Shown piece by piece: positions 39,785-43,787 of a DNA stretch of 64,000 nt (the first letter of the stretch is position 1; each line of letters begins with the position of its first letter). The notes under the pieces are model-generated. The model ran no database searches and was not told the DNA's origin. It saw only the letters and a program-made list of their open reading frames with translations. The position numbers and the translations under genes were made by a program. This DNA is from Flavobacterium phycosphaerae (GTDB taxonomy: Bacteria; Bacteroidota; Bacteroidia; Flavobacteriales; Flavobacteriaceae), in assembly GCF_010119235.1 (NCBI RefSeq), contig NZ_JAAATZ010000001.1:2324501-2388500 (forward strand), given 5' to 3'.

Positions 39785-39850
39785 TTAATTACGAATTATG
39801 AATTACGAATTACGAATTAGGGATTAGGGATTAGGAATTAGGAATTACAA
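39785..39850. repeat. AATTACG/AATTAGG microsatellite
   Basis: A run of 7-bp units changes from GAATTAC to GAATTAG and GGATTAG along its length. It is the longest uninterrupted copy in the window and lies just upstream of rlmD. Confidence 0.75.
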
Positions 39851-39970
39851 TTTTATTTTGGATTTTGTAGGTGGGTGAGGGGAGATGAATCTATGCCTTT
39901 TTGGGGTGAAAAAACGGTTTATGGCACTATAGAAACTGCCTTTATGGCAATGTGTGGCACTCTTGCCGCA

Positions 39971-40044
39971 CTCTAGAGGCAATCTAGAAGCAATCTAGAA
40001 GCAATCTAGAGGCAATCTAGAGGCAATCTAGAGGCAATCTAGAG
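39971..40044. repeat. 11-bp tandem repeat with TCTAGA core
   Basis: About six and a half copies of AATCTAGAGGC, with AATCTAGAAGC variants in the first copies. Each unit holds the palindrome TCTAGA. The 11-bp period is one helical turn and does not keep a reading frame. Confidence 0.85.
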
Positions 40045-40120: not shown

Positions 40121-40227
40121 GGAAAATTACAATGACTAATTTATACCGGCTCTTAAATAGAGTTAAGTGAATGACTAATGGTTGTTCGGGTATTAATGAG
40201 TTATAGCCAATTTTAGGACGACCGAAA

Positions 40228-40728
40228 ATGAAAGAACAAACAGAAATATATAAACTTGACAAAAGTATCTGGACACATGACGACTTTGAAGAAATGGGTT
40301 GGCATGACGCAAACATTTATGGGCTGACAATTGAGAAAAGCAAAGATAATTGGACAGCAGACTTCTTGCTCGACTTAGACTACATTTTTAAATGGGTTCA
40401 TCCAATTCCTCCAGCACAGACATTTACATTTTGGGTTGCTCCATGTACTCTAATTTTTAAAGAGTGTTTTGACTTGCATATTGACTTCAAAACAGATGGT
40501 GGTTGTCTTGACTTAATGGAAATAGCTGACCTTTATTTAAAAAGCAAAATAGAGCAAGAGAAAAATAAGTTTGTTTACGAATGGACAATCGAGTTACAAC
40601 AAGGACAAATAACTTTGAAGTCATATGGTCTTGAACAAATTGTAAGACAACAACCCAAATACGTGCACGGACAAGTGTTAACTTTGGACGAGCGTGGTGG
40701 AATAAATTTTGGACGGAAACCATGCTGA
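40228..40728 (+). CDS. Orphan cassette gene 1, hypothetical protein
   Basis: A 166-residue soluble protein with no signal or membrane segment. It contains MGWHDANIYGLTIEKSKDN, DFLLDLDYIFKWVHP, FTFWVAPCTLIFKE and a C-terminal LTLDERGGINFGRK. The WHDxxIyG-type motif recalls short proteins in variable regions of Bacteroidetes, but I cannot name the family. The ATG is 22 bases after the cassette boundary GTTATAG and the stop is 17 bases before the attC-like palindrome. That packing is typical of gene cassettes. Confidence 0.72.
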   Translation: MKEQTEIYKLDKSIWTHDDFEEMGWHDANIYGLTIEKSKDNWTADFLLDLDYIFKWVHPIPPAQTFTFWVAPCTLIFKECFDLHIDFKTDGGCLDLMEIADLYLKSKIEQEKNKFVYEWTIELQQGQITLKSYGLEQIVRQQPKYVHGQVLTLDERGGINFGRKPC

Positions 40729-40744
40729 CAGAAAGAAAAACTGG

Positions 40745-40876
40745 CTATAACAGGCGTTTGGCAAAAGTGGCGGTTCAGTTCTCCGCAGACGGTTTTGGGG
40801 TTCTCCAAAGTTTGGTTCTCCGCATCAACATTTGTGGTGAAAATCGCCACCTTCGCCAAGCGCCAAAACGTTAGCG
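40745..40876 (+). repeat. attC-like site 1
   Basis: It starts with CTATAAC (40745-40751) and ends with GTTAGCG (40870-40876). The left arm GGCGTTTGGCAAAAGTGGCG pairs with the right arm CGCCACCTTCGCCAAGCGCC at 17 of 20 positions, one of the three mismatches being G-T. The central part has two copies of GTTCTCCGCA. Length 132 bases, within the range of long attC sites. Confidence 0.7.
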
Positions 40877-40907
40877 GTAAGCATAAACACACTCAACATA
40901 TAAAGAC

Positions 40908-41501
40908 ATGGAAAAAAATTATCGAGCATATTTTTTGAACTGGACGACAATTAATCAAGTCGGAAAAATTAAACTTTTAAGATCTGCTTTTGTAATATTC
41001 TTTTTATTACCAATAATTGCGCAATTAATTGAGAAGTATCAAATACACTTTGAAATACCAATTTCATGGCTATTGTTATATTACAGTACATTGTCTATTT
41101 CACTAGGAACTCTTTTATATGGAATTTTTTGCCCTGAAATTGTTTCAAAATTCGAATCTTTTGAAGATTTTGATAAATCTGGAAAAGGAGGAGCATATCT
41201 GTATAATCAATTATCTAAAATAATGTCCAAACAGAAGACTCAAGGAAATTTAATTGAATTATTACAAAAATACACTTTTGCACATCTGAAAAATGAAGCT
41301 GGCATCGAAGATATAATAACGCGTACCATTTGGGGTGGACATAAAACTGATTTTTGGTTTGTTCATGATACTCTAAACTACTCTAAACCGATAATTCGAA
41401 TTGCTTGTTCATTATTCTATTTTACCGGTTTTGTACTGCTTGCTATTGTTTTCATCGAAAAAATATTTACTGTTACAGAGTATCTAATAAAAATTCAATA
41501 A
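40908..41501 (+). CDS. Orphan cassette gene 2, hypothetical membrane protein
   Basis: A 197-residue protein with a pair of hydrophobic helices near residues 24-75 (LRSAFVIFFLLPIIAQLIE and ISWLLLYYSTLSISLGTLLY) and one or two near the C-terminus (IACSLFYFTGFVLLAIVFIE). The middle is soluble and charged (FESFEDFDKSGKGGAYLYNQ). No family recognised. It begins 31 bases after the boundary GTTAGCG and ends 8 bases before the complementary CGCTAAC, so the gene fills the cassette. Confidence 0.72.
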   Translation: MEKNYRAYFLNWTTINQVGKIKLLRSAFVIFFLLPIIAQLIEKYQIHFEIPISWLLLYYSTLSISLGTLLYGIFCPEIVSKFESFEDFDKSGKGGAYLYNQLSKIMSKQKTQGNLIELLQKYTFAHLKNEAGIEDIITRTIWGGHKTDFWFVHDTLNYSKPIIRIACSLFYFTGFVLLAIVFIEKIFTVTEYLIKIQ

Positions 41502-41509
41502 ATGCCTAC

Positions 41510-41639
41510 CGCTAACAGCGGTTTCACGCAATAGTTGCAATCGATTTTCCTTAAACGGAAAATCGAGAGGAAATTTACATATCTTTACAACTAACCGCTA
41601 ACCTTCCCGCCACTGACGCGAAGCCGCGGTACGTTAAGT
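41510..41639 (+). repeat. attC-like site 2
   Basis: It starts with CGCTAAC (41510-41516) and ends with GTTAAGT (41633-41639), which fits the core consensus GTTRRRY exactly. The left arm AGCGGTTTCACG pairs with CGCGAAGCCGC on the right. Inside is a perfect 10-bp hairpin, TCGATTTTCC with GGAAAATCGA (41541-41566). Confidence 0.65.
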
Positions 41640-41659
41640 GCAAATTTAAACCCTTTACA

Positions 41660-42229
41660 ATGAAGAACCTTTTTATCATTACACTACTCACATTTGGAAT
41701 TAATTTTACAAATGCTCAGCAGAACATTTCGATTGAAGCAAAAGGAAACTTAGAATCTCCAAAACCTTGTGGATGCATTGATTTATCCGAAGTTACAAAC
41801 GAAAATAACCCTGCAGATATTCTAACTGGAATGGGAAAGTGCATTGAATTAAAACAATTTGAAAAGGCTGCTCGCCTATTTGCTATTGCAGGAGTATATG
41901 GAAAATATGACACTTTTAGAGTTAAAGATAAAAGTGCACATCAAGCTTTAATGGTTCTCCAAATGAGTATTTTGGAAAATATTGACGAAAACGACAAAAC
42001 CAATTTGATGGATAGTTTAAAAAAAGAACTTAAATCAGGCTCTAAAGAATTAAGTAATATTTGCCAAACAATTCAACAAGTTGGAATTCCAAAATATCAC
42101 CCAAAATACATGGTTCAGCACGGAATTCAAGCATTTACTGATAATAATGGAAACGGTCTGGTTGATGGATTTAACAGCCAGGAATCATGGAATTTAGCTT
42201 TAAAAAACTACTTGCATTGTGGAGAATAA
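41660..42229 (+). CDS. Orphan cassette gene 3, secreted hypothetical protein
   Basis: A 189-residue exported protein with a signal peptide (NLFIITLLTFGINFTNAQ). The mature part has CGCIDLSEVTNENNPADIL, helical repeats rich in Lys and Glu, and a C-terminal TDNNGNGLVDGFNSQESWN that resembles a calcium-binding loop. No family recognised. The ATG is 20 bases after the core GTTAAGT. The following attC-like site keeps only its left half. Confidence 0.7.
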   Translation: MKNLFIITLLTFGINFTNAQQNISIEAKGNLESPKPCGCIDLSEVTNENNPADILTGMGKCIELKQFEKAARLFAIAGVYGKYDTFRVKDKSAHQALMVLQMSILENIDENDKTNLMDSLKKELKSGSKELSNICQTIQQVGIPKYHPKYMVQHGIQAFTDNNGNGLVDGFNSQESWNLALKNYLHCGE

Positions 42230-42236
42230 AATCTGC

Positions 42237-42262
42237 ACATAACAGCGGTTTCGCGCAATAGT
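42237..42262 (+). repeat. attC-like half site 3
   Basis: ACATAACAGCGGTTTCGCGC continues with AATAGTT. The part from TAACAGCGGTTTC to AATAGTT matches the left arm of site 2 except for one base. No complementary right arm or core follows before the DUF1697 gene, so the site is truncated. Confidence 0.6.
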
Positions 42263-42319
42263 TCCTTCCAATTCCCCAACCAAAAATATTTTATTATCTT
42301 TAGAACTAAATACTAGTGT

Positions 42320-42911: not shown

Positions 42912-43613
42912 ATGGGAACCAAAACCACTTTTAAAAGTTCAATTTCGGGTGCTGATTTTCCGGAAAGCGATAGAGTTTGGGGCAAGTCAATACGCTCGGC
43001 TATTTTTAATTTAATCAAAAAAGACTATCCTGATTTTGATGTCAACGGCTGTATTGCCGGTAGTGAACTCAATGTTTATCGGGAGAAATATATAGCGGCC
43101 TTTTTGCAATCGGAAGTGGGAGAGCTTACAGATTTGCACAAAAACGTTATGAAATCTTTGGGGACTGATAAATCCTTTGTTTCTAAAGTAGAGGAAGAGG
43201 AAGACACCCGAACGGTAGGGCAGGTGGTTGCTGATAAAGTAGCTGATTTTGGCGGAAGCTGGACCTTTATTATTTCGTTTTTTGTTTTTATCTCCTTATG
43301 GATAGCTTCTAATGTTGTTTTACTCTTGAACAAAGGCTTTGATCCTTATCCCTTTATTTTACTGAATCTGATACTTTCTTGTGTTGCAGCGCTTCAGGCA
43401 CCGGTGATTATGATGAGTCAAAACCGTCAGGAAGAAAAGGACCGCGAAAGAGCTAAAAAAGATTATATGATTAATTTGAAATCAGAACTTGAAATTAGAA
43501 TGCTGGATGAAAAATTAGACCATCTTATCATGCACCAACAACAGGAGCTGATTGAAATTCAGAAAGTACAAATTGAGATGATGAATGATATCCTTGAACG
43601 GATTAAGAAATAA
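42912..43613 (+). CDS. DUF1003 domain-containing membrane protein
   Basis: A 233-residue protein. The DUF1003 core has two helices (GSWTFIISFFVFISLWIASN and PFILLNLILSCVAALQAPVI) followed by MMSQNRQEEKDRERAKKDY, the family signature. An N-terminal domain of about 90 residues and a C-terminal coiled coil flank it. Function unknown. It lies 43 bases after the DUF1697 gene and runs into an AATTACG repeat. Confidence 0.92.
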   Translation: MGTKTTFKSSISGADFPESDRVWGKSIRSAIFNLIKKDYPDFDVNGCIAGSELNVYREKYIAAFLQSEVGELTDLHKNVMKSLGTDKSFVSKVEEEEDTRTVGQVVADKVADFGGSWTFIISFFVFISLWIASNVVLLLNKGFDPYPFILLNLILSCVAALQAPVIMMSQNRQEEKDRERAKKDYMINLKSELEIRMLDEKLDHLIMHQQQELIEIQKVQIEMMNDILERIKK

Positions 43614-43787
43614 TTACGAATTACGAGTTACGAATTACGAATTACGAATTACGAATATAAATAGTATAAGCTGAGGTTAAGGAAAATGTAGTTCAGGTTA
43701 AAAGTTATGATTTTGCAATTAAAGTTGTGTAACTATATCAACATTACGGACTAACAATTCGTAATTCATAATTCGTAATTCGCAATT
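43612..43787. repeat. Pair of AATTACG arrays in inverted orientation
   Basis: Arm 1 (43612-43655) has about six GAATTAC-type units and arm 2 (43755-43787) has the complement (CAATTCGTAATTCATAATTCG). About 100 bases of unique sequence lie between them. The right arm lies just before the ornithine aminotransferase promoter. Confidence 0.7.

Follow-up and report, generated by a model that had tools for sequence, protein, structure and literature searches.

The window analysed here (the whole stretch of DNA, 64 kb) carries three consecutive genes that an initial annotation had described as an integron-like cassette array, set between housekeeping genes and lacking an integrase. The locus raises the question of whether these genes are integron cassettes and, if so, which recombinase would move them. 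Judged from sequence comparison, the array is very probably a three-cassette satellite of a chromosomal integron-like platform, whose XerA-like recombinase would cut in GTT and act on folded bottom-strand hairpins.

Three cassettes and their surroundings in the window

The array occupies positions 40200-42243 of the + strand and consists of three one-gene units separated by palindromic bodies of about 117 nt (118 and 116 nt). Its features are given below; "parent" refers to an array of matching build elsewhere in the genome.

40191..40202, + strand: left junction, putative attI-like secondary site, TATTAATGA followed by GTT; resembles the parent-array junction, TATAAACTA followed by GTT
40200..40751, + strand: cassette 1, ends GTTATAGCCAATTTT and AAAACTGGCTATAAC; arms 40200-40214 and 40737-40751, 14/15 complementary
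40228..40728, + strand: ORF of cassette 1, 166 aa, without a Pfam family; relatives encoded in 2 of the 198 other genomes of the genus
40752..40869, + strand: attC-like body 1, 118-nt palindrome of a divergent type; inner arm with compensatory changes relative to other types
40870..41516, + strand: cassette 2, ends GTTAGCGGTAAGCAT and ATGCCTACCGCTAAC; arms 40870-40884 and 41502-41516, 14/15 complementary
40908..41501, + strand: ORF of cassette 2, 197 aa, without a Pfam family; a relative encoded in 1 of the 198 other genomes of the genus (G389)
41517..41632, + strand: attC-like body 2, a 116-nt sequence of a type shared with many parent sites; 95% identity to one parent site over 128 nt
41633..42243, + strand: cassette 3, ends GTTAAGTGCAAATTT and AAATCTGCACATAAC; arms 41633-41647 and 42229-42243, complementary at 9/10 scored positions
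41660..42229, + strand: ORF of cassette 3, 189 aa, without a Pfam match above cut-off; relatives encoded in 3 of the 198 other genomes of the genus
42244..42310, + strand: last attC-like body, incomplete, left half only; first 23 nt identical to the parent type

The reciprocal 7-mer cores described in the initial annotation, GTTATAG/CTATAAC and GTTAGCG/CGCTAAC, are both present and their complementarity is real, but seven bases were too few: the pairing in units 1 and 2 spans 15 nt, with 10 bp followed by one mismatch and then 4 bp. This mismatch, at position 11, is identical in all three units (A on the left, C on the right). The third unit, whose end had been left unpaired, qualifies as well, with an additional mismatch at position 5, which bears out the array of three cassettes. 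The annotated match to the GTTRRRY consensus holds for GTTAAGT, one core of the three, but not for GTTATAG and GTTAGCG.

A strict end rule (GTTA, A at position 11 with C opposite, and at least 9 of the 10 other positions complementary) was derived from the parent array and is independent of the window. Across the 64 kb it matches exactly three times on the + strand, at the three units, and never on the − strand; 50 dinucleotide shuffles gave a mean of 0.02 matches and at most one. The left junction is the weak part of the array, because its loose pattern matches three times in the window versus 0.29 expected. On direct reading, no closing GTT arm of the last body was seen before the DUF1697 gene, and an Rfam search returned no match for the array. 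As defined in a passage of PMC9668308, a CALIN has two or more attC sites, spaced by less than 4 kb, and no adjoining integrase. The array, with two full bodies and one partial, is a CALIN in this sense when counted with sites of its own system rather than with the canonical attC model.

All three proteins lack a Pfam family above cut-off, in agreement with their annotation as family-less; that of cassette 2 we take, on the word of the initial annotation, to be a membrane protein. Among 199 genomes of the genus (the present one included), gene 1 was found in 3, gene 2 in 2 and gene 3 in 4, and no two of them co-occur in any other genome. Four of the six relatives adjoin attC-like sites by eye: the cassette 1 relative in G315 lies directly behind such a site, that of cassette 2 in G389 is followed by a decayed one, and two cassette 3 relatives (G311 and G424) stand beside them, whereas the relatives in G382 and G384 do not. 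The G311 relative carries G at position 7 of its two ends and the window unit T at each, so that the ends have changed and are still complementary.

Of the two annotated neighbours, the DUF1697 gene on the right is supported by Pfam, while the name rlmD on the left is that of the initial annotation and was tested only as a conserved neighbour of DUF1697. The start of rlmD lies beside DUF1697 in 18 of 29 loci fetched from relatives, the other 11 being uninformative. The gap between the two genes measures 77-154 nt in 15 of these 18 relatives and 258, 393 and 839 nt in the others. Comparison among relatives, as had been proposed with the initial annotation, thus reveals a site that varies and genes that are scattered. 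Given the cassette-free gaps in relatives and this scatter, the window array appears to have been inserted within this lineage. Tandem repeats occur nearby: several copies of an 11-nt unit (GGCAATCTAGA) lie directly left of the array (39957-40043), and repeats of the AATTACGA type flank the region on both sides (39787-39849 and 43610-43660).

The parent array, the adjacent recombinase and their spread among Bacteroidota

With one attC-like site as query, 36 matches were found in the genome, 24 of them at C1:2132865-2157456. This parent array lies about 205 kb from the window array, directly behind a tyrosine recombinase gene on the same strand (C1:2158146-2159186), and was parsed into 28 consecutive cassettes, all head-to-tail, mostly with a single gene each and built like the window units. 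The reported lack of an integrase is correct for the window itself, into which none of the genome's 10 PF00589 matches falls, but not for the genome, where the XerA-like tyrosine recombinase, a candidate integrase, heads the parent array. This enzyme, one of the ten, is assigned to the sites only by adjacency.

The ends of the 28 parent cassettes are complementary in all cases at positions 1-9, in 22 at position 10, in none at position 11, in 28, 27, 28 and 25 at positions 12-15 and in 15 at position 16, with values near chance from position 17 on. Positions 1-4 were searched for and the best-matching opening was chosen, so the strength of the pattern lies in positions 5-15 and the fixed mismatch. 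None of the 28 openings fits GTTRRRY. The first cassette begins 102 nt behind the recombinase stop, with an attI-like site between. The longest ORF is on the array strand in 27 of the 28 cassettes, fills at least 86% of the cassette in 20 and is no transposase in 26, the two exceptions being IS30-like by eye. Among 10 of the 28 proteins searched against Pfam, two were over cut-off (one an ion-channel protein, the other putatively of AbiC type), AhpC/TSA and lipocalin-like matches fell just under it, and six had nothing.

The two IS30-like cases are cassettes 3 and 25 (C1:2155865-2153984 and 2137555-2135784), two long cassettes that are identical over 1130 bases and in both of which a transposase-like ORF starts at offset 68 from the cassette start; this common offset suggests that an insertion sequence may target cassette starts. 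Other satellites of the genome (L042, L043 and L044) hold attC-like pieces, with one clean cassette in L042 and, in L043, one cassette without the fixed A/C pair.

The linked recombinase has 347 aa. Its best-scoring NCBIfam family is NF040815 (XerA), at 224.1 bits only just above the cut-off of 220, and its nearest named relatives are Flavobacterium records with 67-71% identity. No protein of the genome exceeded the cut-off of the IntI profile TIGR02249 in the profile search (203 bits for the linked recombinase, the best protein, versus 265). The distance from the KDR strand to the RHR box is 63 residues in this enzyme and 62-63 in all 40 scorable proteins of the family (40 of 41, own included; L095 is truncated), compared with 104 in 10/10 IntI of the phylum and 70 and 68 in two other Xer-like proteins of the genome. 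The insertion of about 40 residues found in IntI is therefore absent. IntI formed a separate group (100/100) in a tree of 52 proteins, and the 40 family rows were joined there with only 86/88 support. An N-terminal extension of about 70 residues had no reliable Pfam match; of 23 relatives, six gave DUF5710 (best E 0.00065) and one gave HARP. In one recombinase of the same genus (L077, G127), the match starts at residue 39 and Ser is aligned to the first catalytic Arg, yet cassettes lie behind it; this locus is perhaps a dead platform.

At the level of the family, 157 of the 249 genomes have a recombinase match at E ≤ 1e-40; at that of the genus, 73 of 199 have a close relative (E ≤ 1e-100). 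Forty family loci were taken from 37 of the 157 genomes by score and closed assembly, not at random, and at least one strict cassette lies behind the integrase in 32. In these loci, 152 strict matches (a few of which overlap) lie downstream on the integrase strand, 5 on the opposite strand and none upstream, the latter a weak contrast because only ~2-4 kb was fetched upstream, far less than downstream. The first strict cassette is less than 200 nt from the stop in 18 of the 40 loci. Only 6 of the 152 matches fit GTTRRRY, just GTT/AAC being kept. Eight loci have no strict cassette: L105, L106, L109 and L111, which form their own group in the tree, and L075, L082, L089 and L091, where an attI-like sequence is seen by eye. 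An attI-like motif, under a pattern composed after examples had been seen, lies within 220 nt behind the stop in 29/40 loci versus 8/40 before the start.

In 29 loci of the genus, with flanks of up to 1.5 kb, a strict cassette was found in 14 and the attI-like motif, in a narrower pattern, in 24. Among 47 named records (up to 10 kb on each side, 16 of them ending less than 700 bases from the recombinase match), 16 have strict cassettes downstream, with 41 matches downstream, 3 upstream and 1 on the opposite strand. These 16 include Flavobacterium, Pedobacter, Chitinophaga pinensis, Cecembia, Indibacter and Pontibacter, as well as Bacteroidetes bacterium UKL13-3 with three loci; also among them are two metagenome bins, one labelled Deferribacteres and one Thermodesulfobacteriota, with one match each. 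The same layout is found on the Chryseobacterium plasmid NZ_CP041688.1 (L204). Plasmids L205, L206 and L207 have no strict cassette on the recombinase strand, with one on the opposite strand in L207, and a phage search with the recombinase gave 13 records, none covering 80% of the protein. L206 is a mobilizable Flagellimonas plasmid (NZ_CP092416.1) on which a gene annotated xerA adjoins erm(F). Partial relatives of the recombinase were seen on plasmids of Acinetobacter, Klebsiella, Sinorhizobium and others, and in L205 a tyrosine recombinase adjoins an IS91-family transposase; the wider enzyme family therefore seems to have other roles.

These results bear on whether the window array is a canonical integron or CALIN served by an ordinary IntI encoded elsewhere in the genome. 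The shared architecture of cassettes, attC-like hairpins, attI-like site and reciprocal cores would agree with this. However, the genome has no IntI over cut-off, the stretch before the RHR box is of 62-63 rather than 104 residues throughout, and GTTRRRY is absent from the parent openings and nearly so from the family matches. Moreover, the strict end rule matches just twice in 12 canonical IntI loci (219,857 bases); it finds nothing in 94 kb of the genome's own DNA without arrays. An 8-mer reciprocity scan of the canonical loci was replaced by the strict rule, being strand-symmetric by construction and giving many chance matches. Canonical IntI over cut-off occurs in 107 of 392 genomes of the phylum; among the 110 with any IntI match at the limit, one belongs to the same class, none to the same genus and the rest to the same phylum only. 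Service by an ordinary IntI is thus highly improbable, and this reading is largely refuted already.

Folded sites and signs of cassette movement

Sites were folded with the cassette's own ends, as they would stand in an excised circle. The bottom strand is the more stable in 166 of 168 sites, by 4.45 kcal/mol on average, although this preference depends on the energy parameters and partly on the fixed mismatch, which gives C.A on the top and G.T on the bottom strand. In the window, body 2 reaches -38.1 kcal/mol on the bottom and -29.3 on the top strand (difference 8.8), whereas the values for body 1 hardly differ (-32.4 and -31.9, difference 0.5). Folding of the linear sites (z -2.0 and -5.9) is less telling.

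Inner arms pair best with their own partner (score 11.8, versus 6.8 with other sites of the same genome and 5.6 with arms of other genomes). A named structure of 15 pairs, scored on 15 of the genome's sites, is paired in 98.2% of cells, and its inner helix in 97.6%; slid versions pair at 32-43%. Five of the 11 inner pairs have changed on both sides, a number matched by 2 of 500 shuffles, and the covariation score of the structure was reached by none of 500. The sites thus share with attC an imperfect palindrome, cassette-specific reciprocal ends and a preferred bottom-strand fold. Reciprocal ends and bottom-strand hairpins uphold the annotated integron-like array of single orphan genes amid housekeeping genes. 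Canonical attC status of the sites is not supported, as two of the three cores depart from the consensus and the linked enzyme is without the IntI domain.

A promoter-like box, TANNTTWR, which resembles the -7 box of Bacteroidota, is present on the top strand in 121 of 168 bodies (e.g. 41517-41632) versus 46.6 in shuffled sequences, and on the bottom strand in 53 versus 56.3. Of its 138 occurrences, 102 lie 30-79 nt ahead of the next cassette. The strict -7 box, TANNTTTG, was not enriched in the attC bodies (top strand 7/168, shuffled 9.6); the looser forms were picked after inspection, and related sites are not independent. The top-strand enrichment and placement of TANNTTWR suggest that the attC-like sites may also start transcription of the next cassette.

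Several pairs of cassettes bear signs of movement. In the parent array, a 729-bp cassette is duplicated together with its attC, with limits from GTT to GTT; the two identical bases before GTT belong to the preceding attC. In UKL13-3, an 847-bp cassette with its attC is 100% identical in two arrays of one chromosome, from the G of GTT (no identical bases before it) to the next GTTA, and one copy stands first behind attI. Two other loci of UKL13-3 have a 630-bp cassette in common (100%), whose similarity continues past the AAC end; not every shared copy therefore has clean limits. A cassette on the Chryseobacterium plasmid L204 has a counterpart on a chromosome from Flavobacteriaceae (L084), with 84% identity over 850 nt. 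This alignment begins 2 nt before GTT and ends at AAC; the 1 kb upstream cannot be aligned, and the downstream comparison covers 20 nt of L084. On L204 (16261-17300), an IS110-family transposase gene starts 38 nt behind the AAC end of a cassette, an arrangement that looks like insertion of this element into the attC-like site.

Shuffling of dif-like modules, in which units bounded by inverted Xer sites are moved by the housekeeping XerC/XerD with no dedicated enzyme, would suit the Xer-like character of the linked recombinase and the likeness of an arm-flanked core to an Xer site. The boundaries, however, are hairpins of about 117 nt with cassette-specific arms and not one short constant site, and the sites cluster behind the linked recombinase, none of the 36 attC-like matches of the genome lying near the two other Xer-like genes; there is thus very little chance that such shuffling accounts for the arrays. 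That the units are small transposons or REP/MITE-like elements with terminal inverted repeats, and the arrays nested insertions, has a next to negligible probability: each unit does have terminal inverted repeats and near-identical palindromes are many, but end sequences vary between units with complementarity kept, all parent units are head-to-tail and mostly free of transposase ORFs, and the clean moved copies are bounded GTT to GTT.

Relation to known systems and proposed mechanism

The integron-like platform proposed here has much in common with integrons and CALINs: one-gene cassettes in one orientation, reciprocal cores, an attI-like site beside a tyrosine recombinase, hairpins more stable as the bottom strand, large chromosomal arrays, integrase-less satellites and a plasmid copy. 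It differs from IntI integrons in that its recombinase is without the IntI-specific domain and its cores fall outside GTTRRRY. The ends of classical integron cassettes are complementary over about 7 bp, compared with 15 nt with a fixed mismatch here. In classical integrons the integrase gene is divergent from the cassettes, whereas here the array follows the integrase gene at its 3' end and on its strand. The integrase gene of the Treponema denticola integron is likewise oriented as its cassettes, although the enzyme there is a true IntI.

The recombinase resembles XerA, NF040815 being its best-scoring family. XerA acts in dimer resolution in archaea, whereas the recombinase here heads cassette arrays and carries the additional N-terminal residues. 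The NCBIfam product name of NF040815 is "site-specific tyrosine recombinase/integron integrase", and annotators had therefore seen the likeness to integrons; no literature explaining "integron integrase" in this name was found. Movement by Xer-type recombination is shared with the pdif modules of Acinetobacter plasmids, which are gene modules with short constant sites; these are not known to have a hairpin body or a dedicated adjacent recombinase.

Literature consulted for context comprised parts of PMC9668308, PMC9024848, PMC8138268, PMC8618304 and PMC8371274. In the part of PMC9024848 consulted, IntegronFinder 2.0 is reported to find one complete integron in Salinibacter ruber, where only In0 elements had been found for Bacteroidetes before. 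No description of this cassette system appeared in titles or abstracts among the matches listed, a weak result given that preprints and most subscription papers fell outside the scope of the search.

We propose the following mechanism. GTT is preceded by C in 167 of 168 attC bodies and mostly by A or T (by eye) at attI sites, and the fourth core base depends on the cassette; from these differences we infer that the recombinase would cut and join within the conserved GTT. A cassette would be excised as a circle, in which its own two ends would form the attC-like site as a long hairpin of 10 bp, a G.T pair and 4 bp on the bottom strand, followed by a short asymmetric loop, the inner arm and a variable head. 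Recognition of this hairpin as folded bottom-strand single-stranded DNA would fix the orientation of insertion. The target could be attI, another attC or, in rare cases, a secondary site resembling attI, for example the gap between rlmD and DUF1697. The enzyme would act without the IntI-specific domain, and its N-terminal extension may, more speculatively, take over hairpin binding.

The system appears to work like an integron but fails two tested IntI-type features, the IntI domain and the GTTRRRY core. With moderate confidence, we consider it a second kind of integron, with a XerA-type enzyme without the IntI domain and with its own attI and long-armed attC, which would be common across Bacteroidia, occur on plasmids and move folded single-stranded bottom strands. 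If so, a large integron-like system in this class of Bacteroidota has been overlooked so far, plausibly because available tools seek the IntI domain and the GTTRRRY core. It would open a large pool of cassette genes, be relevant to tracking gene exchange in these bacteria, and serve as a natural experiment on which parts of IntI the recombination of hairpin DNA requires. The integron way of life would then have arisen, or would persist, without a domain thought necessary for it, and Bacteroidota may swap genes by a parallel version of the mechanism best known for the spread of antibiotic resistance.
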